A stretch of 64,000 nt of DNA from Isoetes taiwanensis. Taxonomy: Eukaryota; Streptophyta; Lycopodiopsida; Isoetales; Isoetaceae. Position 1 is the first letter of the stretch, and each line of letters opens with the position of its first letter. The stretch lies in the NCBI GenBank assembly GCA_021234155.1, contig JAJEKV010000049.1:3191487-3255486 (forward strand), written 5' to 3'. The notes under the pieces are model-generated. The model did no database searches. It was not told the origin of the DNA and was given only the letters and a program-made list of their open reading frames with translations. Positions 18,146-63,367 of this stretch are shown here, piece by piece. Position numbers and translations under genes: made by a program.

Positions 18146-18229
18146 TTTGCAAATGATGTTCGGTTTCGCAAATGGCGAAGAAAGAAATATTAGACAAACA
18201 ACTTGGGAAATGAAAGGAAGAGTCCTCCA

Positions 18230-38737: not shown

Positions 38738-41700
38738 ATGGCTGCTGTTTCTCCTAGGCGATCTGCGGGTTACCTGCATTCATCTCCGGGTACCCTTTCC
38801 TCATTAAGTCGTCCGCCCAGCCATAGAAGCCCTTCGAGTCGGTATGACAGAGAATCCTCTTTGGCGACCTCAAATGGTGGTGAGAATGCAACAGAAACTG
38901 CAGAAATGTTGGCTAAATTGGCCATTGAAGAATTTGCCAAGGATAGTGTCTTTTCTAAGTTTTTGTCTGATGACTTCAATGCTACACAATTTGCCAGTGA
39001 TGCATTGCGTAGTGGGTCTGCGGCGGCTTCTACAGAAAAGCTTGAGGAGGGAATTCAGCTGCTTGATAAACAGCTTAGGAATGAGATATTTCTCAGGCAC
39101 AATGAGCTTTTCCAGCAGCTTTTGCGGCTAAAGGATATGGAAGGTGCACTTACAGTTGTCAAGGCAGGAGTAAGTAGCCTTCAAAGCTCTTTGAAAAGAG
39201 TTAGGTCAGAGATTGCTGATCCATATAAGCAAATCAAGCTGAAGTCTCAGCAACTGTCATCTCTTCATGAAACCATCGAGCTTCTCAGGTCTGTTGTTAG
39301 AACCCTCAAACTGTTGAAAAGATTAAGGGAACTACTGGAAGCTGAAGGGGCAAAGTCAGATTTATCAAAGGCTGCTCAACTTTATAGTGAAGTAGAAACA
39401 TTGAGAAAGGAATCAGATCTTTCTGGAATTGAAATCATAGATGAGGAGATCCCTTGGTTCTTGGAAGCAGGAAATAAAATTAGGGCCGAAGCCATGAAAG
39501 GTTTGGAGAGAGGCATGGAAGCCCTTAATCAGGCTGAAGTCGCTAGTGCTTTGCAAGTATATTATAACATGGGAGAACTCAAATCTACTGTGGAAACAGT
39601 GGTTAATAGGTATAAGGTGCAAGCTATTAAGAGTATCAACACAGCATTAGATATGAAAGCGATATCTTCAAGTGCTGGCACTTCTGCCGGTCCGGGGGGT
39701 GTTCAAAGAAGTGGTACTCCACAAATTGGAGGTGGATCAAAGGCAAGGGAAAGCCTCTGGCAAAGATTGGCAGTTTGCATGGATCAACTGCACTCTATTA
39801 TTGTTGCTGTATGGCATCTGCAGCGTGTTTTGTCCAAGAAAAGGGATCCTATATCTCATGTGGGGTTTTTTGATGAAGTTGTCCAGGTATTTAAATTTCA
39901 GTCTTTCTGTTTATATTATGCAGAATTTGTTACGTAAACATATAAAGTTGGCTTGAATACCTTCAGGCTGGTGATTCATTTCTCACTGAGCGTGTTTGGG
40001 AGGCTTTGGTCAAATGTTTTACAAGTCAAATGAAATCTTATTTCACAGCATCAAGCTTTGTGAAAGAAACTTTTGTATCAGGCTATCCAAAACTTCTGGC
40101 AACTGTAAGTGGTCTGCTTCAGAAGGTTGTACGGGATACTGATGTAAAGGGCATTTTCCCAGCCATTAAAACTGAAGATGGGGAACAGCTCATAAGGGCA
40201 CTTGAGCCATTTCAGACCGCCTACTTGACTCAATGCTTGAATCGTTTGTCTGAGCAAGTGCATGGTATGTTCCCAGCAGCAATTCGGGGTAGCATACCTA
40301 CACAGGATCAGATTGCAAAATTTGTCATTCGGATTCAGGAGGAGATTGAAGCTGCAAAACTGGATACAAGACTCATGCTTCTAGTTTTACATGAAATTGG
40401 CAAAGCACTGCAATTGCTTGCAGAAAAGTCGGAATATCAGGTGTGTTACATGTATCTAACCTTTTATTCTTAAAAAAGTCTTTATTCCACAACTAAGATC
40501 ACGACTCACCATTTAGGTTTCTTAGAAATGTACTCTTGGAAACTAGGGCATTTTCTAAACACTGCCTTTGGTAGGTAGAATCCTTCAATTGAGCTTTAAA
40601 CATGCCTCTAAAACATGCATTGATAAGGACATTTGAATTTCGGTAGGGCTTATTTTTCTGAAGGAAGAGTCATTTGCAGTTTGCATTCAATTAAAGGTAA
40701 TATTATATAGCCTCTTCGTTTTTGGACTCCATTTGAAGACGCCATGTCACGCTTCATGCCATGCAATTGAATGATTATCTTTAATTACAAGAATAAAATT
40801 TCTAACATGTAAAACTGCTTCATTTAAGACAATTTTTCATCTATAATTCAAGTTTAGTGCGCTTTAGGATTTTAGATTTCCTTCATTCTGTTTCGTGCTC
40901 CTCTTTAGATTTTAACTTTTGTTAGGCTGCTTTGCATTTATGCAGATCACAACAGGTCCAGATTCACGTCAAGTGTCTGGTTCTGTAACCCCCCTGCAGC
41001 TGAAAAATTTTAGCCTCTGCCTCCATTTACAAGAAGTACATCAGAGAGTCACTGGCATGCTTGCTGGTCTACCAGATGCTGCAGCAGAGATGCTTTCACC
41101 ATCGCTTGGTTCAGTCTATGGTGTGACACTTGATACAATCACTCCGCTCTTTAAAGCCATGATGGAAAAGTTGGAAAACTGTATCCTAAAAATGCATGAA
41201 CAGGATTTTGCTTCAGATGCTATGGATGTGGATATGGATGGTGGTAAACAGAAATATTTGGAAGAGATACAAGAAGCCACACTACATTTTCGTAGCGAAT
41301 TCCTATCAAAGCTTATGCCTTCCCCTGCATCTTCATCTATTATAGGCGATTCAATCTATTCAAATCTTGCGAGGAAGATGGCATCACGTGTTTTGTTGTC
41401 ATTTGTACGCCATGCTGCATTAGTCAGGCCATTATCTGAGATGGGAAAGCTTAAGATGGCAAAAGATATGGCAGAACTTGAACTAGTCGTTGGTCAAAAC
41501 GTATTTCCAGTTGAGCAACTTGGTAGTACCTACAGAGCTTTGAGGGCGTTCAGACCCCTCATATTCCTTGAAACCACAGAAATTCTCAACAGCCCCCTCT
41601 TGCATGAACTTCCACCAAGTGTCATACTTCATCATCTTTTCTCCAGGGCGCCTGATGAGCTGGAGTCTCCCATGAAGCGTCTGAATCTTACACCTTTACA

Positions 41701-41884
41701 GTACTCATTATGGTTGGATTCTCAAGGGGAAGAACAAGCATGGAAGGGCATTAAAGTGGCATTAGACGATTATGCAACCAGAGTGAAATCTCGTGGGGAC
41801 AAGGAATTTAGTCCTGTTTATCCTCTTATGTTGCAGCTGGGCACAATTCTGATTGAGGAAAAGCAATCACAAAAGAATCAATAG
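38738..41884 (+). CDS. COG5: Conserved oligomeric Golgi complex subunit 5
   Basis: COG5 is a lobe-B subunit of the COG tethering complex, which captures vesicles for retrograde intra-Golgi transport. Three coding exons are inferred: 38738-39886, 39967-40440 and 40946-41884. The introns are CAG|GTATTT...CTTCAG| and CAG|GTGTGT...TGCAG|, and both junctions are phase 0. The product is about 853 residues, close to other plant COG5 proteins. A low-complexity Ser/Pro N-terminus precedes the conserved start (EFAKDSVFSKFLSDDFNATQ). A coiled coil follows (KLEEGIQLLDKQLRNEIFLR; LKRVRSEIADPYKQIKLKSQ), then the C-terminal helical region. No frame breaks. The nearest neighbour upstream is LINE-D. Confidence 0.96.
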
Positions 41885-42614: not shown

Positions 42615-44626
42615 TTGTCCATTATATTTATTTTATTTATTAATCAAGCCATTTAGGCCCCCAAGCCTCTATGGCAAAGAATACAAATTAATACTTTGGC
42701 ACTTAATTCAGAGTGCCATCAATATCAAAATTACTCATAAGAGTGAAAAGCTCAATTATGTCTTCTCGTTCTTTCAAAAGATCTCTAAAATATGAATATA
42801 AAGTATGTGCAGGCAAAAGGAAAAGTTCACCAAGTGTTAAAGCTATAATGCCATAACGAGCCCTTATCTGTTCGGAGTGCATGTTCTTCATCTTCAATTG
42901 CTAGTTCTAGGCAACTTGGATAAAACCGCTCTTTATGGGGTGTTTCATCCCACCTACCAGTCTCAATTCACAAATTATGAGATGATAATCTCATTTGCGA
43001 AATAAGCATGCGTTTCTTCCTGCTGATACATGAGAGTAGATAAGCTGCTCTTTATACTCTGCCAGATCGTTTAGATTAGTCAAGTAAAACTTCTTTTTTA
43101 CATCTTTATCATCGTCTACTCGCCAAAGTTTACGAATTGCTCATGCAGCTACATAATCATGTATCTCTTCAAAGTTCTGGGATAGCAGTCAATTGTCATC
43201 ATCAAGCCATTTCCTTGCCCATCACTTAACATCGGCGTACCAACCTTTTGTGCTATGCATAAAGGATTGGTAAGGTAATCGGTCAGTGTCCATATCTAAA
43301 ACCCTGTTAACAAATGAAATGGTTCTGCACTTGATTCCCAATTCAACTATCAAGAATCTTTTTTGTATCTTCTCTATATTGCTCCACCCCTTTGAAGATA
43401 AACCTGGCCCCCAAACCGGGCTTCCATAAAGAACCACTGTTTTTACTTGTATCCAAAAAAAAAGTTTCTTTAGTCGCCAATGTTCAAAATTGTTGATTTT
43501 GCACTGATTCATCATACTGTAAAACGCTCTGAGACCACCTGATGTACGTTTCTGAGCTGCCAATGTCCACTTATAATTATTTGACACTTCAATTCCTAAA
43601 TACTTATAATTCGTGACCTGTTCAAGTGGAACACCACCTACATAAAATATTGTGTATCCTGGCCTCCTAGCACCATTATCTTTGATTTATCGGGATTTAC
43701 CCTCATGTTTTTTTCTTCACGAAAGCCACATAATACATCTAGATGGTGTTGCAGTCCAGCTGGGTTCTTTGAAATTAATAACAATATCATCAGCAAAAAG
43801 CAGAAGCTGCAAAACATACCTTCCCAAATGGACTCCTAAACCTCCAAGCATCGTCGTCCAATTTTCTAGTTCATCTATGAACAATCCAAAAAGAATTGGA
43901 GAACAGGGACAACCTTGCTTTACCCCAATGGTATTCTGCACTTTTTCTGGCCCTGTAAATGGGAAAGATAGTTCTACTAGCACCCTGTAATATAAGCACG
44001 CAACTGCATGACGAAGTTCCTCTGGAACTTGTAGCATTTCCAGTCTGCAAGCAAGATCCTTCCTCTTAACTGTATCAAAAGCCTTTGTGAGATCTATAAA
44101 GGCAAGGTATCTTTTATTACTAGCACCCTTTGCACTTTCAAATAGTACTTGCAGTGTAACTAAATGGTCCAAAGTGGAGTGATCAGTTCTAAAACTTGCT
44201 TAACTAAAGGTCCGAATATCATTTTCATCTGCCCATAAAGACAATTTCCGTTCTAGCATAGACGCAAATAATTTAGCAAATATATTGCTCACTAAAATGG
44301 TCCGATAATTCTGCACATCATCTCTACTACCAACTTTATGAATAGATACAATCCTATTTAAGCACCATGTATCTGGAAATCCATTTTTCAAAGCATCATT
44401 ACATAGATCAGCAAGGAGTTCATGTAACTTGGATCCTTCCCATTTCAGAAGCTCGATTGTCAGCCCATTGAATCACATGCTCAGCCATTTGCCATATTTC
44501 TAAGCGCATCAGAGACATCTGTGTGTGTGTGTAAAAAACAATGATGCTTCTCCACTAAACGCGAAACCCTCTACATGAATAGTCTGATATAAGGCCTTTA
44601 CCAAATTAAAGAGATCATCTCTTTGG
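42615..44626 (-). mobile_element. LINE-M, 3' half (reverse transcriptase), split by a large insertion
   Basis: The RT half of a minus-strand LINE whose other half is at 57562-59570. Downstream on the minus strand are VKALYQTIHVEGFAFSGEA (about 44600-44540) and ELLKWEGSKLHELLADLCND (about 44450-44390). Next come KNGFPDTWCLNRIVSIHKVG (44390-44330), YLAFIDLTKAFDTVKRKDLA (about 44110-44050), GVKQGCPCSPILFGLFIDEL (about 43930-43870) and LLLFADDIVI (about 43810-43780). A C-terminal thumb region is at 43222-43587 (VLYGSPVWGPGLSSKGWSNI). Several frameshifts. The 3' end shows a hairpin (42650-42675) and an AAATA-type tail (about 42620-42645). Confidence 0.85.
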
Positions 44627-44652
44627 ATATGGATAAAAGCATGAAAGGGTGT
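44627..44652 (+). repeat. Left terminal inverted repeat of the 12.9-kb element
   Basis: Twenty-six bases containing TAAAAGCATGAAAGGGTGT, complementary to 57536-57561 with a single mismatch (A versus G at the sixth base). The outermost ATAT is palindromic and could be a 4-bp target duplication instead of part of the repeat; in that case the terminus would begin GG(A/G)TAAAAG. Confidence 0.85.
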
Positions 44653-44952
44653 ACGTACATCGTACTGAATTGAAGGACGAATTCGTGCTTTTTCGGGCTA
44701 CATTTTGGGTGTACAACGTGACACTCCGATTTGTCTTTTTGTAGCAGGTCCGCAATGATTGCGAGAACATCCCCTGACAACCCACCGCCGGAATTCTTGG
44801 CGCACCGAATCGAACTCAGTTTGAATGAATCCGTCCCTCCCTTTTCAAAATTTCCCCCTTCCCAGAACGTTAACCAAACAAGAATCCTGCAAGAAAGATG
44901 GAGAATTTCACAAGAATTCTACAAGGAATTCCAATCAATTTCATTTTTGCAG

Positions 44953-47928
44953 ATGGAGGGCGAGAACTCCATTGCAATTGCTGGTTCTAAATGCAGGTAT
45001 TCCGACACTGGCCTGTGCTACGCTACGAAACAAATAAAGCAGCGTGTTGATAGGTCGGTGGATTGCATTCTCAGCTGTTTGCAACCCCTTCGTCCAGATC
45101 AAAGAGTAGTCTTTGGTGCTCGTTTAGGATGACAGGCTTTTTTCTTTTTTCAAACCTGTGATTGGAAATCCTTCTGAAGTTATTGTTATGAAATCAATGA
45201 TCAGAAACTTGAAAGATGGGCTTCAAGACGTAAAATCTGCTAATAGCAAAGACCTGTTGGCTGCAAAACATTCGCTGTTATCAATGATTATTGGAAAAAA
45301 AAGGCGATATAAACAAGACTGTTTCTTCAAAATTACTAAAGATACAACCAAGAAATTTATCCAAAGCTGCAGCAAGAAGGAAGATAATGTCATTAAGTGG
45401 AGCAAACATGTGGGCTTTGGCAGGGAGAAGGCCAAGATCGAATAGAATCGATGACTCAATCAAGCGTCAGGTTCATGAATTTCGGCTTGATAATACCAAA
45501 GTTTCACCGAAGGTTAGAGATGTCATGAAGAGAAGAACACAAGCCATACAATACCTTGACATCTCACACGTTTGTTCTTGCAATTGAATCAATTCTCAAT
45601 GGAATCTGCAATTGAATCGATTCTCATTGGAATCTTATATTTTCTTCTCAATTCTTTCATGATCTTCTTGTGTACATTGCAGTACAGTTTCCCAGTGACC
45701 TCTTAGTGAATGCACATGGTTATCATGACATGTATTGCATTACAATGTCTGTTACATTGTTTACATGGTAGCAGAAATTTTGCAGTCATGTACCATTAGC
45801 TACTTTTTAGATGTGAATCCATTTACAGTTACACGTACATGCACCTGCATTTAACATGTACCTGCCTATTAGATTTACATCCCTTTATACTTAAATGTAC
45901 TTTCAGGTAATGAAGCCAAGAAGCTATAAGATATGTACATTACATGTACATTTATGTACATTCTATGTACAGTTATGTACATGCACACTATATGGACATC
46001 TCTAAAATTCGTTAAATGTACATCAGATGTACACATGTATTACAAATGTACAAATGTACTGATTAGTACTTTGGATGCATCTGCTTGCTTATAACAAATT
46101 GCTAACATGGTCTAATACTTGTGTTGTTGCAGTCTGAGCTTTATCAGCAGTTTGTCTAACAGAATCCTGATACCAAGATTCGCCTTCGACATTTTGAGTA
46201 TCTGAAACCTGAGTGTATAAGGAAATTGAAAGAGAGGAACACATGTTGTTGTGTCAAACATGAACAGGCATATCTGTACAGAAAGGCCTTCAATGATATG
46301 AGAAGGGCTCTACATGTTAATTGCACTTGCTGCTGCAGTGTTTGTGCATCCCAGGAAAACAATGGAGTGTGTCAAGCAAATAAGAAGACTTGATAATGTC
46401 AGCATCTTGTGGAGGTCAAGAGTTTGTGAGAAATATGTGACAGATGAATGGCATAAATTAAAATGTATCAAGGGTGAATGTGAGGAATGTGGAGACATTT
46501 GTCCAAAAGAGGAAGATGGAACATGCATGCAGGATGTCGATTGGCAAGTATATGCTTATGTCAATGAGCCTTCCAAGAAAGGTACATCCAGAAGGCTTAG
46601 ATTAGTTGCACAGCATGACAAGGTATCTGTCATGTTAAAGAACATGAAAAATCAGCTTGCTAAGTTTACAGATCATAACTTTACTGCACACTGGCAGAGG
46701 AAACAGTTCAAAAGATGTATTGAGAAACTCCCTAATAAGAGTGTGTTGTCTGTTGTTGACTTTGCAGAGAACTACACATTGAAGCCAGGGACAGAAGTGC
46801 AATCAGAGCACTGGAATCCTGATCAGATTACGATTTTGGTCCATATTTCAATGATGAAAAACGAAGGCAAGCTTACAAAAACAGTGCATTTCTTTGTTTC
46901 AGATGACAGGAAACATGACACTCATTTTGTACAACATGCTTTTAAATTACATTTGGCGTGGCTTAAGAATAATGGAGGCAGTGACATAAACCTTCATTAT
47001 GTGTGGTCGGATGGTTGTGCATCTCAATTCAAGTCTTCAAGGGTATGGTATGGAATCTGCAGATACCATGTTGAAAACAAAATTCGAGTGATATGGAATT
47101 TCTTTGGATCTGGCCATGGGAAAGGCACACATGATGGAGAGGCTGGTATAGCCAAGTTATGGCTTGAGAGCGAGCAAAGAAAACAAAATGGCATGCCAGT
47201 GACAGGTGCAGCAATAGCTTGTGCAGTTTTAAGGACCAAGGAATCGGAGCGTGAAAGGATATTTTGGGAGGTTGGAAAAACTGATGTGGACAGGCAGCAA
47301 GCATTTAATTGCAAGACTTTACATAATATTCAGCAAATACATTCCGTCTCAACCATAAACCCAAATGACCCAACGAAGTTGCTTTGCAGACCACTCTCGT
47401 GTTTCTGTGATGCTTTCATTATCTTCGATTGGCTGAATTGTGAGAACATACAACATTGTGGCGAATGGTCCCTGAAAAGTTTGGAGCCCACAGATCATGT
47501 TGCCTCTCGTGGAGAAGCTAAAAATGATGTGGATGTGTTGTATGCAGAAGACGAGCCTGGTTTAGATGACACCGTAGGAGTTTCTGATGTTTTTGTATCA
47601 TTTGCAGCACCAGACAATGTAGAAGGTGTTCCATACTATGTTCTAGTATGTACAAGGGAAAAACATGCATTGGAAGAAGATTCGGTTGATGACTATGGAA
47701 ATGAGTACGCTACTGGTACTAGAACTAATTCCAGGCTGCCACAACAAGTATAAACTACTTCCTAGTAAGAATCTTTTGGTACCCGCTGAATCCGTCATTG
47801 GGTTTAGAATTCCATTCAACAAAGTAACTCACAGGCTGAAGGGGGCGACCACAGCATTTCATTTGCCCGATGAAGTTCATGAGTCATTGCTATCACAACT
47901 TCCAACAATTGTAGATGTCATGGACTAA
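44953..47928 (+). pseudogene. DDE-type (RNase-H-like) transposase, decayed
   Basis: It resembles a family of uncharacterised transposase-like proteins I know from cnidarians and other animals, with SDG...Q and GHGKG..DG motifs. In order it shows a basic N-terminal region (45158-45445), then KRQVHEFRLDNTKVSPKVRD (45440-45560) and an exon opened by TTGTTGCAG at 46132 (SELYQQFV, then NPDTKIRLRHFEYLKPECIR). A Cys-rich stretch follows (NTCCCVKH, NCTCCCSVC). The catalytic core at 46314-47753 has DFAENY, WSDGCASQFKSS and FFGSGHGKGTHDGEAG, supplying candidate acidic residues. Breaks: frame changes near 45140, 45425, 46355 and 47750, and a TAA at 46157-46159 inside a conserved block. This copy probably cannot make active protein. 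Confidence 0.7.
45830..46065. repeat. Cluster of TGTACAT/ATGTACA motifs, left
   Basis: At least ten copies of the palindrome-like TGTACA with AT flanks in about 230 bases, lying in the intron before the transposase exon. Similar clusters lie at 47945-48000, 48735-48760 and 51825-51955 within the same element. Confidence 0.7.
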
Positions 47929-48166
47929 CTCAGATCTGGAGATGTGAACATACATTTACATACATCAATGTACATCTGTTGTACATCAGCGTACATTTTT
48001 GAAATAACTTGTATATCCCAATTTGAACAGAATTGAATAAAGTTTATTGCATAAGCATTTAATATCATTTTATCAATCTGAAGATAAGACATGAACAGAT
48101 TTTCATGGAAAAATGGTCTATATATTCATATTGTACAAATAAATACAACATATTTATACCACGGGT

Positions 48167-51100
48167 TCATGGTTCATGGTGTACTTTCAAAATGTCCTCA
48201 GGGGGCTTATATCTAATGACTTCTGCATTATGCCTTCCTTTCTTCCAGTTGGCTGTAGAAATGCTCTCCAAAGCAGTAGTCCATGCTGTTTCAATTGCAC
48301 GTGCCATTGGGAACCTACCCCATCTTATTCGTTCCTCATCCACTACAATTGGTTGCCCCCAAGGGTTATGCACCAAATGATTTGCTGCCAACCGAATTTT
48401 CATTTGATCTCGTTCTCCCTTATCTTCTACATTGTCAACTTTTTCCCAAATTCCAGGAAGAGCGGTATGGCAGCGAGGACTAGTGCCCAACCCAATGTAC
48501 TTGCAGCTTTTCGTGGTGGTTTGAGCATCCGGGCGCAACAGAATTCTTTCCCTTAACAATTTAATAGTCTTTTGCACATTAGTCCCTTCATCTACAAAGC
48601 AAATTAAGATCACTTAAATATATGTAGACACTGAAACTTAAACCAAATATGAAAGGAGAGAAAAACTTGTACCAAAACAGAATACTCATGTGCACTTTGA
48701 ATAACAAAAAAACTGTCATATATTTACATCTGGAAAATGTGTACATCAGTTAAAGTCTGTACCAACAATAGGCCATTCGAGAGGCCAATAACAGTTTGGC
48801 AATTTCTCCATTCCCTGCTCCACGTATTAACTGAACTTAGAAAGTAGAGCAGCCAAGTTATTGCCATAGTTACCCAGCAAAATGCCTTCAACCTGCTCAG
48901 ATATTCCATCTGCTGCATTACTCATTGGGCGCTCCTTCACGTAGCTTGTAGCATCTGCAACAACTTTTAAACCACTAAGCCAGGGAATGAGTTCCATGAC
49001 AAACAACATGTCGCCCTGTAGAACTGGTGTCCAAGAGAAAGGACATATGAAGCTTCCTGCAGGATTCAGCGTTGCTTTGTATCTTTCGTCATTGATTAAA
49101 ACTGTATTGGCATAGTATTCAGGATACTCTTTCCATACTACAGCTAATGGTTTCACAAACAATCCTTTGTCTGGTTCAGTGGGATGTTTGTGTGGAAGAG
49201 ACCAACAATGCTTCTGACTGTAAATAAACTTCAGTTTTATGCCAAAGACATTGCAGATATGGTCCACAACTGGCTGCAGATTCTTTGATGTGAGTGATGA
49301 CCAAATGGCAACATCAAAATGCTCTCTAACAAATGCTAACAGTGATGCTAGCCCTGGCCTACAATAAAATATCCTGTTTCCTAAATCAAATTTCAGCTCA
49401 TCTTTTTGAATCTTCTGGTATCTTGAGTTCGCAGCATCACTCTTGTGGACGCTTTTGCCCAACACAGAATTTAAGTCAAATACAATGAGCTTCATGATTG
49501 ACTCAGATGATTCACCTGTGTCAGCAACAAAACACTTGAGAGTAGAGTGAAAGAAATATAATTACAGTAAATATATTACAGTGAAATACATGTTATTACA
49601 CAGTTAATGTTTGCACAGGTACAAGTGACATAAGAAAGTCATATTTCCATTAATTGTTGAATACAAAGAAAAATGAGCATGACTCATGATAAACTGTAAT
49701 TCATATGGCCAAACTATTTACCCATGGTAAGAACAACACTTTGTATGTCCATCTCGCCTTCGACAATTAGAACCTCTATTAGATGATTTCTCCATGACTT
49801 GGCATAGGCATCAGTGAACCAGTTGGATGTCATCTGCATGGTTCACAAGTATTAAAAAACTGTATCAGCAAAGAATGCACAAGAAAATACTTTGTTCTAC
49901 TTACAAAAATGGAACTTGGTTGTGCAACAACCACGGCATCGATGAATGCGTGCATGTAAGCCACAATGTATGTGCAAGGAGTGCTGTTACTGGTTTCAGG
50001 CACTTTGGGATGGTGGACAGGGGCATCAAAATTCTTCCTGCCATGGCTTAGACTGTTGGATCGCAACATCATGTTATTAATCACAAGCTTATGAAACCTG
50101 CAAGATCGCAATGTGAGAATAAGGAAAGCATAAGAAGTTGCAATATGTGCATAATCAAATGATTCAAAAGAATTCGAAACTGATACTACTTTTGAAGTAG
50201 TTTAGCGTCCACTGCGTAGCCTTTGACAGGAGATAATATCTGTATGCTTGGACTCACTAAATATGGGAGAGCGTTTTTGAGTGGACCAGCAAGCACAAAT
50301 ATTGCCAAACCAAAATTTGGCCCTTGCAGAACCGGGACAAAAATATATTGACATCGTGCAAGCACAATACCATCCATCCCTTCCTTTATGTGGGTGTTCT
50401 GGACATTTGCAGAACTCCTGTTCTTAAGGGCACTCACAAAATTGAGGAAGCTCTCTGGTTTGAACATAAAGAACTTATTTTTAAGCTCAGATGAAAGAGA
50501 GCTGCAAAGGTACATGCACACGAATCCAAAAGATATATTAATACTCTGAATGAGTGTAAGAATGAAATAATAGAAAAAATATTTAAAAGCCTACCTCCCA
50601 TACACTTCTACCATCTTTGATGTCAAGTCAAGCTTCCAGCAAAACTCGTCAACATCGGTTTGGAACACAACAGGTGCAGGCTTAGGTGGACAGTCCCTGT
50701 GAGGAGTGAATGGGACCAACCTTCTCAGTCGGTCCATTAAACTGTACAAGGCAACGAGAGTATTAGCATCACAAAAATTATATAAGTCATGAATAAACAA
50801 GATACTCACTTTGCTCTGTCATCACCATCCTTTGTGCCAGAGTCAGAGGCTGCTCCTTCTGCATCTTTTGTGGACTCTTGCATCTTGTTTGCTATGTCAT
50901 CAAGCGCGCGATCAATGTCCTCTTGTTCTGGTTCTGACTCAGAAGCAGGTTTATCCTTAATTTCAACTTGTGATATTGTCCTATGTATTGAAAAACTATG
51001 GTTAATTATCATAAAGCTGAGATGATTAAACAAATTAGCTAACTAATCCTGCACATACCTCTTTCTTGGTGGTGGTAGTGCCTTGCCTGGGGATTTCCTT

Positions 51101-51725
51101 TTTGGAGGGTTCTTTTTTGCTGTAGCCTATTTTTTTCCTCGTGGAGTTACAGCAACAACCTTCTTTTGTTTCCTCCTAGGAGTAGACTCAACATCCACCT
51201 CTTCCTCTTGGGGCTCCTCTTCCCTGCACTTGCCTAGGTTAAAATCAGGATCTGTATCCACTGTAGCATCTGTAATAGGTACAGAACTAGCTTCTGCAGA
51301 TGATGCTGATGTTGATGATGGAGCAGACCCTGATTTTGCAGCATCTGAAGCTTTCTCTGGAGATTTTCCAATTACTAATATTTCAGTTTTTTCAGTTAAT
51401 GATTTTGCAGCTTCTGATGGACCTAAGGATACAGTTTGATCAATTGGTAACGTATTTGCAATTCCTGCTGCTCTAGCTCTCAAAACTGCCATCTTCTCAA
51501 TTTGTTCAATTTCAGACTGCCATGTTCGAGCTGGGACTATTGTGACAGGTTCTGTTACTGGCAGAGACATCCTGGTTGGTGTTTTGGAAGTGGAATCTGG
51601 CATCTGTTCATATTGAAGGTTTTCACGGTCATCACCATCTGTACACAAAGTCGATGCAGATGGTTCAGCAATGTCAGCGACGGTAGGTTGCATGGAAGTG
51701 GCCTTTTGGATATAAACATCCTCAT
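48167..51725 (-). CDS. Multi-exon gene with Ulp1-like and FCP1/NIF HAD-like domains (one premature TAG)
   Basis: Inferred exons on the minus strand: 51059-51725, 50810-50980, 50595-50741, 50190-50501, 49905-50097, 49722-49833, 48874-49515 and 48167-48591. All seven junctions use GT...AG and keep frame, giving about 890 codons. Exon 1 is Ser/Glu-rich and then basic (TPRRKQKKVV; NPPKRKSPGK), with an in-frame TAG at 51127-51129. Exons 4-5 resemble a C48/Ulp1 cysteine protease (YIFVPVLQGPNFGLAIFVLA; SNSTPCTYIVAYMHAF with the candidate Cys), but Asn stands where His is expected. Exon 7 is an FCP1/NIF-type HAD domain (LIVFDLNSVLG, FYCRPGLASLLAFV, VAIWSSLTSKN, VLINDERYKA), but the second Asp of the DxDxT box is Asn. 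Function unknown; both domains may be binding rather than catalytic. Confidence 0.65.
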
Positions 51726-51824
51726 CTAGAAACAAACAAATGGTGTAAATGTTAATACACATAAAAGCAAAACTCAATGTTAATAAACATGAAAATAGAA
51801 CTTAAGTATGAGAAATATCAGGTA

Positions 51825-51960
51825 CATTCTGGTACATCCACCTGTGACATGTACATTTCATGTACATCGAATGTATCAAATGTACGTAACTTTAAAAGCA
51901 GCCATTCAACCTACGTCTATTGTACATTTAATGTACATATAATGTACATAATGTATATAG
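51825..51960. repeat. Cluster of TGTACAT/ATGTACA motifs, right
   Basis: About eight GTACAT-type motifs in 130 bases upstream of the minus-strand gene, mirroring the cluster beside the transposase. Confidence 0.7.
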
Positions 51961-52353
51961 GTGGACCCAAGCATGCAGATTGCAGAGAGAGAGAATATAG
52001 ACCTATGCCCAAAAAATGCACATATATGTAACAAAGGTACATTAAATATGAATCATCTACCGATGCACTCCAACCACAGGAACATATGCATCCAAAAAAG
52101 GAACATGTACATCTACTTGCAGATGTAGACTCAATTAAATCCATGTATAACTAATACATAAAACAAATCATACATATGCAGCCCAAGCTAAAAAATAGAA
52201 GCATCAATAAACAAGCAAGTATATGCCTATGTACCCCTGCAAACAGATGTACAATAAAAAAAAACACATACAAGGAACAACAATGCACTATAAGACATAC
52301 ATGTAGAACTATGTAGATTACAGTAACAAATATGAATCAAGAGCAATCTAAGA

Positions 52354-52647
52354 TTAATCATTTAGAGTAATGCATACCTTGTCCAGCAGGGAAACCAAGC
52401 TGATTTTGAATCCCTCATCCCAAATGCAGCCTTTTATGCAATTCTGTTTTTCATATACGAGATAAGACAAGCAAAAGAGGCAATAAGGATCTCTGCAAGG
52501 AGCCAGCAGCACCAAACCAGATTTGCCAAAGCCTTGGCCACAACAGGTACACGAATTGAATGAGATGAACTCTTGTACAGAAGTAGCTCCTACAGGATTT
52601 GGCCTAAGAAGCAAAGTTTCATTAAATCTGGAAAAATATGAATGCAA
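52354..52647 (-). CDS. Possible upstream exon with Cys-rich zinc-binding segment
   Basis: On the minus strand this frame has a Cys cluster (CTCCGQGF, then APCRDPYCLFCLSYL, then CIKGC) resembling a RING- or PHD-like zinc-binding domain. It has a plausible donor (GACAAG|GTATGC, ending about 52382). That donor does not fit the phase of the exon at 51725, so either another exon lies between or this is a separate gene. Confidence 0.4.
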   Translation of the reverse strand: MHSYFSRFNETLLLRPNPVGATSVQEFISFNSCTCCGQGFGKSGLVLLAPCRDPYCLFCLSYLVYEKQNCIKGCIWDEGFKISLVSLLDKVCITLND

Positions 52648-52649
52648 TG

Positions 52650-55600
52650 GAATTTTTTTATGGTAGGGTTGTTGGAGGGTTATATATACCTGTTGTAGGG
52701 TTATGCACGTTGTAGGGTTATGTATACTTGTTGCAGGGTTATGTATACCTTAGATTAAACACACATATCTATATATACACGAATACATTGACATGTGTCA
52801 TACCTACCTCAACATGATATGTAATGCATTTTAGCATACACAACTAGAATAAGGATACATCTGATACATACAACTAATTCAAGATAAGAAACATACGATA
52901 TATAAATATGATGTTATAATCTAAGAGAACCTTTGATTGATGTTATGTCCTTCCACACGTCTACTTGGAACCTTCATTCGTCAAATATAGAACCACAGAT
53001 CCTGCATTGCATGTCCATAGACCCAATTAGCTCATTAAGGTTGAAGATTTCCATGCATCAACATCATTATACGTACTATCATGAAGCCAACTTGGATTTC
53101 ATCAATACGTCATCTATGCCAAGACAGATAGTAAAACACATACTTGTTTTTGGAGTATTGTTAATGCTTCTTGCAAGGATATGATATGGTATCATTGACT
53201 GCTTGCATACATCACCTACCTACATTTAGCAACAAAGTAGGTGATGGTGGGACATCCTGCACGATTAAAAAGAGAGAGGAAAGTCAATCTACATGCCAAA
53301 TATAAGTCATTAGTGAAATAGTCTCCACTTATGGAGTCATATGCTCCACTTGAGTAAAATGGGGCCACTGCGCCATTTAAATGGTGTGATGCCTCATTTG
53401 AGTCAAACTAAAGTAAATGGAATGTCGACATGCAGAAAATGGTGCCATATAATGGTAGCTCCATTTACTACTAATGTCACCATTTAAATAGCTTCATGGC
53501 TCTATATTAGATTAAATGGAGCCTGACAGAACCAAATGTCATCTCCATTTTAGGTTTTACATTTTGACTCAAATGGGGTAGGCTTTTTATCTATTCATTA
53601 CATTCAATCTGACATCAACTCATTGTACACTATAAATTTCTGCTAAAATTCCTGGCATTCTATTACTCTTTTATATGCATCTATCCACTTAAAACTTACA
53701 CATCAATACCTATCAAAATTTAAAGCACCAACCTCGGAAAGAATAGTGTAGAGAAGAGGTTTGGAGTTGATTACAGCAGTAACATTGGAATGTAGAGAAG
53801 ATGCAAAGCCAATTTGTCCATGCCACGAGCTAATACCTTGATGATCAACAAAGAAAAAAAGAACTTTGCAAGATCAAGCATCTAAGATTAGCTCCATATA
53901 GAATGCGTAAACTAAAGCAAGAATAGTACCCATGTAGGCGCTTAGCATATGACGTGCATCCGCGTTAAACAAATTGCATTCGCATGGTGTGTCGCAGAGG
54001 AAGCGCTAAGATGGAAATAAAATAACCTCCTTTCTAAATGGCATTAACATGGAAGGCTTTTTTAATTTCGAAATAGGGATATTAGAGGTAATTCAAAATT
54101 TGAATTCAAATTTTAGATTGACGGGCGGGATTGGGGGGAATTTCAAAATTTGAATTCAAATTTTAAAATGAGGGGCGGGACTTGGGGGGAACTGAAAAGT
54201 TTGAATAACATATTCCCTCCAACCCCTACTTTCAAAATATTTTACCATTTCCATTCCACCATATTGCTCTCCTTCTCGACCACCGTATCATTTGTCGCCA
54301 TGAATATTGTCCTCCACCGCCTCCTCGTCCAATGCCCCTACACACCTCCATAAACCTTCACAACGTGCGTTATGCAGCAGCACCACAAGCGCTTCATCCT
54401 GGAACACTGTATAGCCTCCTACCACCAACCTAGTGCTCTTCTCCTCCTCCATTGCCATATCCTTTGTTGTCATACCATCGTCATCTATTGCCTCCTGCAC
54501 CAGCACCCTCTAGCTCCAGCATCTTCTCTTCTCATTATCTCCTTCTCATGTGCTCCTCTAGCATCTCGTCTTCTCATGTTCTCCCCTAGGTTTACCTCCC
54601 TCTCTCTCCCTCTCCCTCTTCCTCTCCCTCCCTCCCTCCCTTTCTTTGTTAGTACAGTTGGATTATGTTGTACCAAGTGCCATTTGATGATGAAGTAGCA
54701 ACTTATACAATTGGAGTAGCATTCTACATGTTTAGCCTTTACGAGTTACCAGTTGAATATCAGTTGGCATGCACATTCACCTATAACTCTATAATTCTTA
54801 CCCGAATATGGGCTCTACTAGGACCCATTGCTCTTTGACCAGCTCCAGCACCATCATCAAGGATCTACAAGCAAGCAAATATTTTAGAAGAAAAAATAAG
54901 AATTCTTGGTTGAAAAGTGTTTACAGTGCAGAGGAGAGACCATTGATTATATTCACATGCTGCAACTCTTGAATTACATGCTGCAAACACATCAACATAT
55001 CTCTTGATTTCAGTTTGGATTTACTGCAAGATGATTTTAGTAGCTTTCAGAAGCCTTTCGTATGCTTTGATGCATCAAGACACAGCTGGTAGCAGTTATT
55101 TAATGCCTCAGCCAATGGATCTCCATAGTTACTGCAAGAACAAAAACGCCAAGACTAAAATACGTTAACTTGTTTACCATAGCCTAACAGAATGCATGTG
55201 CAAAACCCCAACATTATACTTACCAAGTCCAAGCCATAGAGCTGTGGCGGTTGGATCTTTTGACTTATTCCGTGTTTCTGTGCTTCCGATGAAGATCATC
55301 GAGAACGGCTTAATCTGTACCTGACTTTAAGTTGAATCTTGAATGGGACGCAGTGCCGAAAATATATCACCTGCATTTGTGCGATTAGAGAGTTAGGAAA
55401 GCCTGCAAGCGTGGCCCATCCTTGCCATGGAATCATGATTTCGTAGCACTTTCCAGAAAGAAAATAAATAGTTTAGACCGATCCATAGTTTCATAGAGTT
55501 TTAAGAAGTCTCAGGTATTACCTGAATACCATGGCTCTTGCAGACTTGGAGCAGTGTAGAGGTTGCAAAGCTCGGATCATTCACCCTCCGAAGGCAGCGG

Positions 55601-56300
55601 TCACCTTGGATTTTTTGGCGGACCTCCAGGTTTACCAAGCTCCATTCCGGCGCCAGAGAGCTGCTGTGAGATCTTGGATTTCCGTCATCTTGGAGCTTGG
55701 ATTTCTTAGGGATGAGCTGCAGCGCCGCCAGAGGGCCGCTGAAGAGATTTTAGGTTAGAAAGCCGCTGGAGATATTTTAGGGTTAGGAACAGAGAATTCT
55801 TAAGTCTTCGTTATGTACAAGGTCTAGTTTTCTAGAACGTATTTTTTGGCAACACTAGCCACTAGGTCTTGCACCATACTGTAAAAATAAAATGATCGAC
55901 GTAAGATAGCTAGATAGATAACTATTTGACCATTTTAGCCCTAAATCTTGTGACTAATATTTATAAAATCTTACGATTCTTTGTATAATTGGTTCTTGAT
56001 AATAATCAAATGGCACTATTTTGTTTGATTTACTTCCACAGTTAACTTAAATAGAGCGAGTTTTCACTTCTAAACTTAATAAGGTTGGGGTATTGAAATG
56101 CTATTTATCATTATTTTGTTTGTTTTGCATCCAATGGTACCACGTTCTTGGTAAAATAATTGGTTGGTGGCGCCATTTGCATTCTTTTTTAGGTTGTTTT
56201 CCGCTGTTTTTTCCCCAAATGGCGCAATTTTAGGCACGAAATATAACAGAAATTAAAAAAAAAAAAATATTTTCGAGCAAAATTGGAATCACCAAATTTC
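52650..56300. other. Non-coding interior of the 12.9-kb element
   Basis: No convincing gene. There are several ATTTAAATGG/CTCCATTT phrases at 53330-53560, two ~66-bp tandem copies with CAAAATTTGAATTCAAATTT at 54085-54170, and a pyrimidine-rich CTCCCT tract at 54590-54645. A 75-codon frame at 55531-55758 contains RRQRAA twice and is unrecognised. The segment may hold promoters or first exons for the minus-strand gene. Confidence 0.35.
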
Positions 56301-56321
56301 CAGATTTAATGAAACTGTGCT

Positions 56322-57483
56322 TTAAGGTGCAGAGCAATAGGTCCTGCTCTCCCCATGAAATTCAAAAATCTGGGAATGCCTTTGTTGAACAAGTTCCATG
56401 CAGCTAAGTTTCTCCTTTGCTTGTTGAATTGAAATTTTATGTTTTTCAATGTCTCTAGTTGCTTCCTGCAAACCAATCTCTAGCTTAGAACAGTGCTGCT
56501 TCTTCTCTGTTCTACTCATAACCAAGTCTTCCAATTTGCATTTCAAAACTCCATAGCTAACTTGATTTTCAGCAGGATCATTGGCCAATTTGTCAAATTC
56601 CAACTTCGTGTCTTTTATTTTCAGGAAAATCTGCTGCAAATCTTCTTCTAGCATATCCTTTTTACCCTCAATCCGGCTGATCACTTTCAATGCATCCCTC
56701 CTTTTGGCTTCCAGTGCTTCCACTTCATTCAATAGGTTAATTTTATCCTCTGAACCATTCTTAAGTAACTGATTTATTATGTCAACATCAAATTTAGAAT
56801 AGCCTAAAGCCCTAGCATTCTGATGCAATACCACCTCCTGCTTGATGTTCGACGATTTTCTTGTTGTAGGTTCCTCTGTAATATCTGAAGTTTTGGCAAG
56901 ATCCTTGGCGGTCTTAGCAACATCCACCCAATCAATAAGGCGTTCCTTCAAATGAAGAGCAAATGCCCGAGCAAAATATGTGGAAATATAGTGGTTTGTT
57001 ACCTGCTTCTTGCCATAAAACCAATTCATAATATTTAAAAAATTCTTCTTTCCATGCATTCTGAACTCTGCCTTCCTTGAATCCTCTTCTATTCTTTGGA
57101 GCTGCACCCCATACTTCATTCATAATTTCCTCGAGTCTGGGTATGTGGATCTCGGCATGTTTTTCACGGAGGTCTTTGGCTTGGATCACAGCCAAAAGTT
57201 TTCTCTTTGTTGGTAATTTTCCACTGCCGGAATTGCTAGTTTCTTGGTTCGGCTGTGGTGAAGAGCAAGCACTGAGTTGGGGAACAGATTTTGGGGCCAT
57301 AAGTGGACCAAGAATTGGTGATCGGAGTGGAGGCAGAGTATGCGCGGGCGGGATAGCGAACGCGAGGCAAAGCAGTGCAAGAATTTGGTAAAGAAATTTA
57401 AAATCCGAAAATGGTGCGGTTGCAGAGTGGTGGATAGCATTAATCATGGCAGTTACTAGCGGTTCATGATTATAGGACTCCAT
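56322..57483 (-). pseudogene. Coiled-coil protein gene next to the right terminal repeat
   Basis: Two overlapping minus-strand frames appear to be one gene with a frame change near 57000-57060. The N-terminal frame (57483 to about 57000) starts MESYNHEPLVTAMINAIHHS, has a hydrophobic stretch (FLYQILALLCLAFAIP) and then a conserved-looking region (LLAVIQAKDLREKHAEIHIP, RLEEIMNEVWGAAPKNRRGF). The C-terminal frame (to 56322) includes ISTYFARAFALHLKERLIDW and a long heptad-rich coiled coil (INLLNEVEALEAKRRDAL; LEEDLQQIFLKIKDTKLEFD). Family not recognised. A splice rather than a frameshift could also join the parts. The start codon is within 60 bases of the terminal repeat. Confidence 0.5.
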
Positions 57484-57535
57484 AATTTGTGCATTGGGTA
57501 CATATGTATATGTATAAAAAAGGCTACATTTCTAG

Positions 57536-57561
57536 ACACCCTTTCATGCTTTTACCCATAT
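57536..57561 (-). repeat. Right terminal inverted repeat of the 12.9-kb element
   Basis: Complement of 44627-44652 with one mismatch. Plus-strand reading begins ACACCCTTTCATGCTTTTA. Confidence 0.85.
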
Positions 57562-59570
57562 TACCTATGCCCATATGTTTTTTGCATCGGCTATCTCCTG
57601 TTCCGTCATGACCATCTCTTGATGCTTCCGTAGCCACTCTCTTTTCTTTCTTTTTACTACTATATTCTTATAATGTTTCAAATCTCATATCCCTTTACTC
57701 TGTTTAAATGTCCTCTTTGCGTCAAAGCATTCTTTATCAAACCATTTACTATATGTTTTTCTTTTTCCCTGTGGGTTTGTATATCCAAAAACAAAGGATG
57801 CAACATCCTGTATCAAATGCTGAATCTGCATATTTCTTTCTTTGCTGCCATCCCATTTTATGTTTTCCAGTTTTTGCGTCAATCTATCTTCATACTTGGA
57901 TGCTAATTTGTAGCTCATCCTTAATTTCAGTTGTGGCAGAACTGGTGGCATACTTTTATTGCACTTCATATCCAAACAAATGTGCAAGGGTGCATGGTCT
58001 GAGTCTGGATTCCTGTCCATAACAATAAATACTGACACGAGCTGTATATTACTTGGTTCACCGATTAACAAATCAACAGTGCTACAACTATTAGGCTGGA
58101 AACATGTAAGTCCTCCGGAGTCAAAATATTTTTTAAGGCCATTGTAGATTTTCATATTAAATGATTCGCATAATGCAAGAAGATGCCTTCCCATCTTATT
58201 TTGCATGCAATCTACGGATGTTCTTGACCAAGCATCATGTTTCGCAGTTAAGTCATTTAACCACAAGTCATTACCTTCTCCTGGCAGCAACGTGGCTTGC
58301 GTATCACTGATTCTGCTATTTAAGTCACCCATTATGAAAACTGGTCCTTTTTGCTGATATTTCAAGACATCAGAGGCTAGGTGGAGAAAGGGATCATCAG
58401 CACTCAAACATTTTTTTGAATATACCGCAATAGGCTGTGGATCTAATGGCGCAAAATAAGCAATTGCAAGGTATACATCTGCCTTACTTGTATGAAATTT
58501 TAGCCAGGCATACTGCGCATATTCATCCTTCTTCTCCATTGTGAAAGATTTTACAATGCTTTTCTTTGCATAGCAAGCTATTCCACCCCATCCCCTTCTG
58601 CTGTTTCCAATAGGATTCCGGACTGAATCGATAATCTCAAAGCCAGAAATTGCCAATAACCTGCTAGTCTCCGATTCCCATGTCTCTAAAAAAGCCAGTA
58701 TATCATATTTTTGAAACAGAGTATCATCGCTGATGATAGTATTCTCATTTAAACCATAGACATTCCAAATTAGAAGCTTGAAGGCATCGTTTCCCTATGC
58801 CCGATTACAGACAACCAATCTGTTATTAATAATATGCGCATTTTTTCCCTCATCTTTCAGTTTATTAACTTCATCTAAGAGCTGTCTCCGTTCTTTTTGC
58901 TGCTGCAGCGTTAAATCATCATTTAACCAGAGTTTCTGCCCTTTGAGATGACTTCTGTGTTGCATCACCCTTGTTCGTGCTTCAATTGATCAAAATTTCA
59001 GCAATATCAGTCTATTTCTGCCTTCTATCTTTTTGCCAAGTCGCCTGCAATACAAGACTCCTGGGTCTACCAAATGCATGCATTCTCTAAAAAACATATC
59101 AACAGTATCATTAATGTTCTCACCTTCTTATTCCTTTTAGACCAACAACAATAGTATTCTTCGCCCTTACGGTCCCTTTCTTCTTGCTCAGACAGCCGCT
59201 CCTACCCTTGTGCAAAAAAGGATGTAACCTTGTTCTCTAAATTTGAGGTGATCTGTGCTATTATATGTTCATGGTTTTCAGATTTAAAATCAGATTGAGA
59301 CGAACCAGTGTCTCCTTTACTTCATCCAATCCTGATTGCACCTCCTTTATGCTGCTTTTGATTATCTGTAATTCATCCTTCACTGTCTTTATCTCCCCCT
59401 AAACATTTCGAATCTCTTCTCTGGCAGCTTTCAATTCATCTGTAACAAGTTTTATCTCATCTCTTGCTGCCTTCAATTCAGATGTGAGACCCTGAACCAG
59501 GTGGATTAGCTCGTCTTCCTCCTCCAACGGCTCTACTCCCTTACGAGATGCCCTTTTAAGGGACATCGCT
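57562..59570 (-). mobile_element. LINE-M, 5' half (ORF1 and endonuclease)
   Basis: The upstream half of the LINE split by the 12.9-kb element. ORF1 begins with ATG at 59566 (MSLKRASRKGVEPLEEEDEL) and runs through heptad-rich coiled coil with one in-frame stop near 59400. It then has a C-terminal region resembling an L1 ORF1 RNA-binding domain (about 59160-58800, ending QHRSHLKGQKLWLNDDL and ERRQLLDEVNKL). ORF2 endonuclease follows from about 58775 to 57685, and the pre-RT linker (REWLRKHQEMVMTEQEIADA) reaches the insertion. Confidence 0.8.
57685..58775 (-). pseudogene. LINE-M ORF2 APE-type endonuclease
   Basis: Opens KLLIWNVYGLNENTIISDD and continues in one frame: DILAFLETWESE, RRGWGGIACYAKKSIV, VFIMGDLNSRISD, the middle segment, and SDHAPLHICL near the C-terminus. 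These give the metal-binding Asn/Glu, GDLN and SDH boxes expected in the family. A TGA ends the frame at 57685. It would nick target DNA in an intact LINE. It is disconnected from its RT by ~13 kb of insertion. Confidence 0.85.
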
Positions 59571-59926
59571 CAACCAAAAAGGTCCGACCTATTTCAAGGG
59601 CGCCCAATTAAGCGCCAAAGTTCCGCCAAAATAAAGCACAAAAAAGGGTTGGAAACATTTTTGGGACCTTTTTTTTGGCATGTAACATCCTTTATCTAAT
59701 ATCTCTTACTTATAGAGACATTGTTGGAATGCTGAAGGATATGTAATGGGCACACATGAAGAATGACTCGGTGGAAGAGTGGTGTAATCCCACCAATGGA
59801 CTGGTAGCTCATTGTTAGAGTACTTGGTTTACAAGTTAGTGGTCCTGGATTCAATGCTTAGCATGTCCACCCAATCAAAGGAGGCTCATTTCTCAGCATG
59901 GTATTAGAGCCATGTCCCAAGTAGTA
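59571..59926. other. LINE-M 5' flank and tRNA-like SINE head
   Basis: 59798-59870 resembles a tRNA in layout: GGACTGGTAGCTCATTGTTA (A-box-like), an ACTTG...CAAGT stem around 59821, and GGTCCTGGATTCAATGC (B-box-like). The acceptor stem and anticodon arm are too degraded for a functional tRNA. A GGTATTAGAGCC string at 59900 resembles a retroelement primer site. A tRNA-derived SINE or LTR remnant is the likeliest reading. Confidence 0.4.
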
Positions 59927-60245
59927 ATTGCAAGGGGATAGTCCCCATTAGTGTATGGGTGAGAATGAGCAAAGCTTGGCCATAAATAGAGGGTGCTTAA
60001 TTGCAAGGGGATAGTCCCCATTAGTGTAGGGGTGAGAATGAGCAAAGCTTGGCCAGTGCAATCCATGGTCCCAAGTAGAGGGTGCTCAATTGCAAGGGGA
60101 TAGTCCCCATTAGTGTAGGGGTGGGAATGAGCAAAGCTTGGCCAATGCAGTGATGGAGTTGCCCTTAGAGAGGGGAGGGTGCTTAATTGAAGAGGATGGT
60201 CCCAATTAGTGTAGGGGTGAGAATGAGCAAAGTTTGGCCAGTGGA
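59927..60245. repeat. Minisatellite of ~73-97-bp units
   Basis: Four units starting at about 59927, 60001, 60090 and 60187, each beginning TTGcAAGGGGATAGTCCCC and containing GAGAATGAGCAAAGCTTGGCC. GGGGATAGTCCCC inside each unit is a perfect palindrome around ATAGT. Open frames on the minus strand here are by-products. Confidence 0.9.
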
Positions 60246-60995
60246 ATACAAAATAAGGCTTTACCCTTTGAGGCAATCTAAACAAGACGCTAACGCAGCG
60301 AAGAATTGCCTTAGTTCAAAACCCAAAGATAGTTATAATCTTAAAGTTCTCCCTTACAGGTCCACATTTGAATGTTGAAGCTGTAAGGGTCTGTATGCTC
60401 CCGATTTGCTTTCCAGTTGAAGGTTGCTCAAGAACATATTGGTGATTGATGGTTCTTGAAACTTGGAGCTTTCGACAGAGCAACTCATAAATTCGCAGTT
60501 ACATAATAATGCATAGGTATTAATAATAAAATTGATCAAAAAAAGTTATAATTAATGCAGGACAAGGTGCAGGTTTCTTATGATGAGTATGAAAGCTCTT
60601 CTGCTTGATCATGATAACCTTTTCCATTCAAGTTCTTGAAATTCTTGCCCCATGTGCAGATTAAATGGAAAAGCAGCTTCTTAACTTACTCTACATTGTC
60701 ATTCCGCTAGAATGGTGCAAGGGCTCGGATTACAAAAGCTTTTGAGTTGCAAAATCAAAGACGAAAGGCTTTGCTATTGCACAACCTGTTGTCGTCGGGC
60801 TCAAAATCGGCAACACAGGTCAACACAATAGTCTTAAATGCAAAAATTGATGTCTACACGAGCACAAAAAGAAAATACACAAAATTAAAGGTCAAGAGAA
60901 TAAGAACCGGCTAGTGACCAGTAAAAAATAAACATTCCAACAAATATTCATAGTATATTCCAAGATCTCACCAAACATGGGTTTTCCCCATTTTG
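60246..60995. other. Unassigned sequence
   Basis: No recognised gene, RNA or repeat. AT-rich. Confidence 0.3.
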
Positions 60996-61755: not shown

Positions 61756-62267
61756 GGCAACCAAAAAACAAGCTTTCTATACAGGTTTAGTTTGGGAGGG
61801 TAAATTGAGGGTGCACTTGCAGGGCAAACACCTAGGCTTGGGGGGTGGGAAGCTATACCTAAAGAAAAGCAGCTGGCCAGCATTTTTTTTTTTTTTTTTT
61901 TTTTTTTTTGCAGGGCAAACACTGAAAACAAGCTATCTATATAGGAATTTGAGCGCCTAAAACATAGGACTAGGTCATATTTAAACCACGGGCATATCTT
62001 TGGTATATCTGGCCAGGTTTTTGTTATGTTAAAAAACCACACAAAAAAAAAAAGAAAAGAAAAAGCACACGTGCTTGATGATTGTTTTAACATGATATCT
62101 TGGTAGGACTTAGAAAAAATAGAATCTTACATACTGCAAAAATAGTCCCAAAAATGTACACTGCACACCTCAAAAAGAAGTATCTACAACAGACTGCAAA
62201 ATTAGTCCCAATATGTACACTGCACACCTCAAAAACTAAGCATCTACAACAGGTTGAGGAGTGCAGG
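61756..62267. other. Intergenic, downstream of EXO gene 2
   Basis: Contains a T run at about 61882-61909 lying next to a 13-bp direct repeat (GCAGGGCAAACAC at 61819-61831 and 61910-61922). The last part is the probable 3' UTR of the EXO gene. Confidence 0.4.
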
Positions 62268-63230: not shown

Positions 63231-63367
63231 TTTCGCAGATGAAATTGGGGATTGAGTTGAATCACAGAAACCGAAATAAGAGATATGATTTGCAGAAACG
63301 GCCTTAGAGATTGAGAAAATCGGAATGCCAAATTCGTGCTTGAGGGATGCAAAAGAACGGATGGGCA

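Follow-up and report, generated by a model that had tools for sequence, protein, structure and literature searches.

Related transposons and overview of the locus

Transposons of the Sola superfamily, according to the excerpts of the sources used here, encode a DDD transposase, produce 4-bp target site duplications, carry repeats of 11-1124 bp and mostly measure 2-9 kb, some of them exceeding 15 kb (PMC10741241). They occur in a moss (PMC10741241, PMC9033089), and the Sola2 elements are described as having an AT-rich AWWT target preference, those of social amoebae carrying extra genes (PMC3627910). The excerpt of a further source places an Ulp1 domain in reverse orientation beside the transposase of KI-MULE (Kaonashi), an element without terminal inverted repeats (non-TIR), and mentions Ulp1 domains also in CACTA elements, there called CACTA-ULP (PMC2528002). 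In a stretch of 64,000 nucleotides of the lycophyte Isoetes taiwanensis (contig JAJEKV010000049.1, positions 3,191,487 to 3,255,486 of the forward strand; hereafter the window) we studied an element that has traits of both kinds of systems. We consider it, with a probability of roughly 85%, to be the relic of a multi-copy lycophyte cut-and-paste transposon with two convergent genes, one encoding a DDD transposase and the other a multidomain, selected partner protein, into which another element was inserted later.

The outer transposon and its insertion site

The outer transposon lies at 44631-57557 (+ strand) and measures 12,927 bp as found, or about 9,209 bp once the nested insertion and the TAAG that it duplicated are subtracted. 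An original prediction, made from the sequence alone, had placed 26-bp inverted repeats with one mismatch exactly where a minus-strand long interspersed nuclear element (LINE) breaks off and resumes, and such arms are indeed present at 44627-44652 and 57536-57561, where 25 of the 26 nt are complementary. Their 19-bp core, with up to 3 mismatches allowed, has just these two sites in the window, while 0.04 are expected from shuffled sequences. The terminal inverted repeats proper, which form the same ends in other copies, are GGATAAAAGCATGAAAGGGTGT on the left (44631-44652, + strand) and GGGTAAAAGCATGAAAGGGTGT, read inward, on the right (57536-57557, - strand). Each is bordered by one copy of the target site duplication ATAT, the left one at 44627-44630 and the right one at 57558-57561.

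The ends recur in the genome of I. taiwanensis (1,658,258,908 bases in 1110 contigs), which was searched with each of them, the best 40 candidates being scored in each search (of 520 for the left end and 557 for the right). The left-end query (window positions 44600-44800) gave 41 listed matches, and 34 of the 40 outside the window, two of which are pieces of one copy in C667, start at 44627-44631. Similarly, 38 of the 39 right-end matches outside the window end at 57555-57562 (40 matches listed). From both lists nine pairs of a left with a right end could be formed, both ends lying on the same contig, oriented alike and at most 50 kb apart, and the 4-bp outer flanks are identical in seven of them: ATAT in the window, TAAG in C1038, TGGT in C1028, GACT in C910, GCCA in C1048, TGCA in C1053 and ATGG in C952.

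The interrupted LINE is read on the minus strand, with its reverse transcriptase side at 43222-44626 (RVT_1 at 43720-44199, E 5e-18) and its endonuclease side at 57562-58794 (Exo_endo_phos at 57688-58794, E 5e-9), which agrees with the split first proposed. Whether intact copies join the two flanks directly had been set beforehand as a test. A query made of the two flanks joined over one ATAT returned 40 matches, two of which are the window's own halves; 35 of the 38 others cross the join, which favours insertion, and all six LINE copies that were aligned have a single ATAT there. Because of the end matches, the paired flanks and these empty sites with one ATAT, the element is delimited as 44631-57557 with a 4-bp duplication. 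A DNA transposon with inverted repeats has entered the LINE, and ATAT, as had been suspected, is its 4-bp target duplication.

Besides the window copy, L039, L040 and L041 were read as further full-length copies. Some of the end loci are probably not unique: the flanking bases are shared within the pairs L013/L014 and L023/L024, each pair probably being duplicates of one insertion. Their location on different contigs with identical flanks suggests segmental duplication or uncollapsed haplotypes. L011 has a second left-type end at a distance of about 1.5 kb from its right end, so that copies or fragments cluster there.

The transposase gene and the placement of the element

The transposase gene occupies approximately 44951-47930 (+ strand), limits that were drawn from the reading frames, from homologs and from the frames of L039 and L041. 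It comprises an N-terminal part from about 44951, an intron end near 46132 and then a Cys-rich part followed by the DDD core. The RNase-H-fold core is contained in an open stretch at 46302-47753 (+ strand), where D153, D237 and D278 form an invariant DDD triad. The predicted model shows an RNase H fold, and the DDE-type transposase relic that the original prediction had recognised in the interior is real. The gene is disrupted by an in-frame stop and frame changes, and the window copy of the outer transposon is a relic. Between L047 and L048 the ratio of nonsynonymous to synonymous substitution rates (dN/dS) of the transposase is 0.18.

When aligned over the three acids, the predicted model shares the RNase H fold with the cores of retroviral integrase and Mos1; it differs from them in an identity of only about 6-15%, in having Asp as the third acid and in the lack of a retroviral context. 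At a meaningful score the transposase fits no Pfam or NCBIfam model, and the window protein, P0004 and P0063 all lack a match to any Pfam transposase family, a missing match alone being no proof of absence. KI-MULE and CACTA-ULP have transposases of the mudrA or Tnp2 type, from which this lack of a Pfam match may set the element apart. A tree was made from 35 chosen proteins, and named relatives were found in Ceratodon, Klebsormidium, Riccia, Calypogeia, Taxus and Ptychodera. In viral contigs and prokaryote genome contigs, scanned with one or two short patterns, no relative was confirmed, and the strings of the conserved SDG motif of the transposase gave no literature match.

The element is probably a member of the Sola superfamily in which the second gene is a lineage-specific addition. 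It resembles Sola in the DDD transposase with its predicted RNase H fold and in the 4-bp duplication, and both its 22-bp repeats and its size of about 9.2 kb without the nested insertion are close to the stated Sola ranges. The excerpts that report Sola from a moss (PMC10741241, PMC9033089) and extra genes in amoebal Sola2 elements (PMC3627910) fit this placement as well. On the other side, the likeness is one of traits, and in place of Fanzor the window element carries a large partner gene, convergent to the transposase, that has Ulp1-like and NIF-like domains. The duplications are moreover not AT-rich as in Sola2: ATAT fits AWWT, whereas TAAG, TGGT, GACT, GCCA, TGCA and ATGG do not (1 of 7). 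Sola2 as the exact subgroup was rejected for this mismatch in target preference.

It seems rather unlikely that the transposase represents a separate, undescribed DDD superfamily whose relatives range from streptophyte algae, bryophytes and lycophytes to a gymnosperm and a hemichordate. Such a placement would accord with the distribution of the relatives named above and with the failure of the Pfam and NCBIfam models to recognise the protein, whereas the defining traits that were examined fit Sola. To our knowledge, several eukaryotic transposon superfamilies are without a Pfam model.

The second gene

Convergent to the transposase lies the second gene (gene 2, or open reading frame 2, ORF2; 48167-57300, - strand), one gene that is split by the nested insertion and whose parts follow each other in the order coiled coil, RING-like, low-complexity, Ulp1-like, NIF/HAD-like and C-terminal domain. 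Its 5' part, the coiled coil, is found upstream of the nested insertion at 56322-57300 (- strand) and has a frame change in the window copy, and a RING-like Cys-rich exon follows downstream of it at 52377-52608 (- strand), its RING matches being weak (E 0.46 in L039 and E 0.075 in L046). Because the coiled coil and the Cys-rich exon of L039 share a single open frame, which continues over the site of the nested insertion, these two parts belong to one gene. The two further gene units that the original prediction had counted are thus the halves of one gene cut by the insert. From 51725 to 48167 the splice sites placed in our predicted model preserve one frame except for two internal stops, and the gene is presumably spliced in this way.

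The NIF/HAD phosphatase-like domain is at 48763-49515 (- strand; PF03031, E 6e-14), with further matches to TIGR02245 (E 5e-8, below the curated cut-off) and to the UBLCP1 structure 3shq (E 1e-5). It is followed by a C-terminal domain of unknown kind (48167-48591, - strand), which has matches in L047, L048 and L049. The Ulp1-like domain, at 49905-50501 (- strand), was identified through the homologous region of L046, which matches Peptidase_C48 above the cut-off (E 1.6e-6, with two exons joined with X), whereas a Pfam scan of the degenerate Ulp1-like part of the window itself gave no match.

In the window subfamily the active sites of both domains are altered. All four copies compared (the window, L039, L040 and L041) have Asn at the position aligned to the Ulp1 His and a changed Cys-Gly pair. 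L046 keeps the His and the Cys-Gly, L049 has the His and Ser-Cys-Gly, and in both of them the Asp position is Asn. As NIF motif I the same four copies have DLN, and L049 has EIQ. In NIF/HAD phosphatases catalysis relies on the motif DxD, and the Ulp1 positions just named include catalytic residues. Since these active-site residues are altered, enzyme activity of the gene 2 product appears unlikely in the window subfamily. Gene 2 is related to the UBLCP1/NIF phosphatases of the HAD superfamily by the homology of its domain to NIF, 3shq and TIGR02245, and differs from them in motif I; because DLN or EIQ replaces DxD, canonical phosphatase chemistry is unlikely.

The carriage of an Ulp1-type domain is shared with KI-MULE and CACTA-ULP. 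Here, in contrast, the Ulp1-like domain is joined to the coiled coil and to the RING-like, NIF/HAD-like and C-terminal domains, and the element differs from the non-TIR KI-MULE in having terminal inverted repeats. No report of the set of gene 2 and this transposase was found in the portions consulted of the openly licensed literature, nor, as judged by title and start of abstract, one of an FCP1-type phosphatase carried by a transposon. Among the matches listed for Isoetes with DNA transposons or Sola, in the portions shown, there was no paper naming Isoetes.

Linkage of the two genes and selection

The association of gene 2 with the transposase was followed with two lists of matches. The NIF list came from one query and held the best 150 of 155 matches, from which 146 places were entered, second pieces of split matches being excluded. 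The transposase list held the best 88 of 95 matches, entered as 88 places. Among the matches listed, 28 of the 53 transposase places with at least 61% identity lie no more than 15 kb from a NIF match, and the linked NIF is on the 3' side of the transposase and on the opposite strand in every one of the 28, the chance per place being about 0.003. In four more distant loci, read directly (L046-L049), parts of gene 2 adjoin transposases that are only about 54-56% identical. L048 has the NIF and C-terminal parts, and L049 the Ulp1-like, NIF and C-terminal parts. Ends like those of the window (20 of 22 positions) were found in two of these four loci, a left repeat in L047, of the 54% subfamily, and a right repeat in L046; the stretch of L049 that was searched for ends starts inside the element.

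Selection was assessed on one exon, that of the coiled coil, at 24 of 29 loci, those without 500 exon bases in one match being left out. Against the two most diverged copies (81% identity) its dN/dS is 0.37 and 0.30, which indicates that this exon evolved under purifying selection. Together with the linkage, this points to gene 2 as a selected gene that is a genuine partner in transposition rather than an accidental passenger.

Several observations weigh against this reading of the element and its genes. Two of the nine end pairs (C121 and C667) have differing 4-bp flanks, and the full-length copies are themselves incomplete, L039 lacking most of 46521-47521, L040 lacking 45681-47091 and L041 lacking short stretches near 50740-50975 and 51422-51625. 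Foldseek found no match in the PDB at E <1e-3 for the whole transposase model, its weak matches being mostly RNase-H-like nucleases and Argonautes. With the one NIF query and among the matches listed, 25 of the 53 transposase places of at least 61% identity and all 35 places of at most 59% are without a nearby NIF. In the distant loci, L046 has the coiled coil, RING-like and Ulp1-like parts with no NIF or C-terminal part seen, L047 has the C-terminal part alone, and the coiled-coil match of L049 is on the other strand. When proteins were searched with the Ulp1-NIF half of gene 2, the best 8000 candidates included no homolog at E 1e-3, so that gene 2 is seen only in the Isoetes genome. Finally, the dN/dS of the coiled-coil exon is 0.24-0.87 in 22 closer copies, save two above 1 (1.38 and 5.48), values to be expected if these copies have been dead since they inserted.

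Some of these points would suit gene 2 as a passenger that was acquired by transduplication and plays no part in transposition, an explanation that we regard as improbable. Gene 2 has altered enzymatic motifs in the window subfamily, 60 of the 88 transposase places are without a nearby NIF among the matches listed, and plant transposons are said in the excerpted source to carry Ulp1 domains as passengers (PMC2528002). A passenger would, however, hardly be expected on the same side and in the same orientation at all 28 linked places, beside transposases of about 54-56% identity, and with a dN/dS of 0.30-0.37 where its coiled-coil exon is compared with the most diverged copies.

The nested insertion

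The stretch 52609-56322 (3,714 bp) is a nested insertion that is bounded by separate inverted repeats (52609-52634 and 56297-56322, 26 bp, 25 of 26 matching) and a TAAG target duplication at 52605-52608 on the left and 56323-56326 on the right. It is missing from all three other full copies (L039, L040 and L041), and L039 presents the empty site, with one TAAG and a single open frame that passes straight across the point. At 30 right-end loci the gene parts are contiguous in 22, the insert is present in one, the window's own, and seven are truncated or unclear; since L013/L014 and L023/L024 are probably duplicates, these 30 loci are not 30 independent insertions.

The insert has relatives elsewhere in the genome. 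Of 39 other matches to its left end, 15 start exactly at 52609 and 11 more within 7 bases before it, the relatives sharing this end at 71-96% identity (best copy 96%), and at L043 the bases outside the end differ from those of the window. The longest open frame in the insert has 114 residues. For the copy in C1080 no right end turned up within the stretch examined, and for this reason the nested duplication rests on the empty site of L039. The stretch 52609-56322 is a separate insertion, later than the outer element and from another family.

The idea of a single 12.9-kb composite transposon with a transposase and two further genes, to which the inverted repeats enclosing the entire stretch and its interruption of one LINE had lent weight, is therefore to be dismissed almost with certainty, as the three copies without the insert, the empty site with its single TAAG and continuous frame, the contiguous gene parts with the insert in the window only, and the recurrence of the insert's left end elsewhere with different outside bases all stand against it. 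A mobile unit comprising the whole interior was rejected by the empty sites and the contiguity. From the original prediction, the entry of a transposon into the LINE holds, and several genome copies with the same ends and different flanks, which it had asked for as a check, are present; the unity of the interior does not hold.

Proposed mechanism

On the strength of the features described, the transposase would bind the 22-bp inverted repeats, excise the element and join it to target cuts staggered by 4 bp. The gene 2 protein would most likely target the transposase, or host silencing factors, at the level of their SUMO or ubiquitin-type modification. In the window subfamily, where the protease and phosphatase sites are altered, it may rather serve as a binding platform. 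The window copy of the outer element inserted into the LINE at ATAT, and gene 2 was subsequently entered at TAAG by a 3.7-kb element from a different family.

We tentatively suggest, with more doubt than confidence, that a streptophyte DDD lineage, either Sola-like or its own superfamily, might constitute an obligate two-protein system in which the multidomain partner, maintained by selection, manipulates SUMO or ubiquitin-type marks and has become a catalytically dead scaffold in one subfamily.

Other features of the window

Elsewhere in the window, a direct repeat of 762 bp with 96% identity (280-1038 and 5193-5954, about 4.9 kb apart, with more incomplete copies at 6226-6942) has the appearance of the terminal repeats of an LTR (long terminal repeat) retrotransposon. 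A second direct repeat, of 984 bp and 87% identity, is found at 17174-18156 and 62259-63242, 45 kb apart, and a short array of diverged direct repeats at 59925-60250. Two open exons on the + strand at 39946-41884 show a presumed resemblance to a plant COG5 Golgi subunit.

Implications

The locus illustrates a trap for annotation, as a nested insertion with inverted repeats of its own made one gene seem two and the element appear 40% longer. The sister-subfamily copies L047 and L049, which are 97% identical over 3.7 kb and whose transposase frames are open over 629 and 620 residues, possibly represent a younger lineage that is still mobile, and they point to younger copies that can be tested. 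An Ulp1-like domain is here associated, in a lycophyte, with a different transposase, of the DDD type, and is joined to a phosphatase-like fold in a gene with signs of selection. This opens the question of whether functions of the deSUMOylation type may be a recurrent need of plant transposons.

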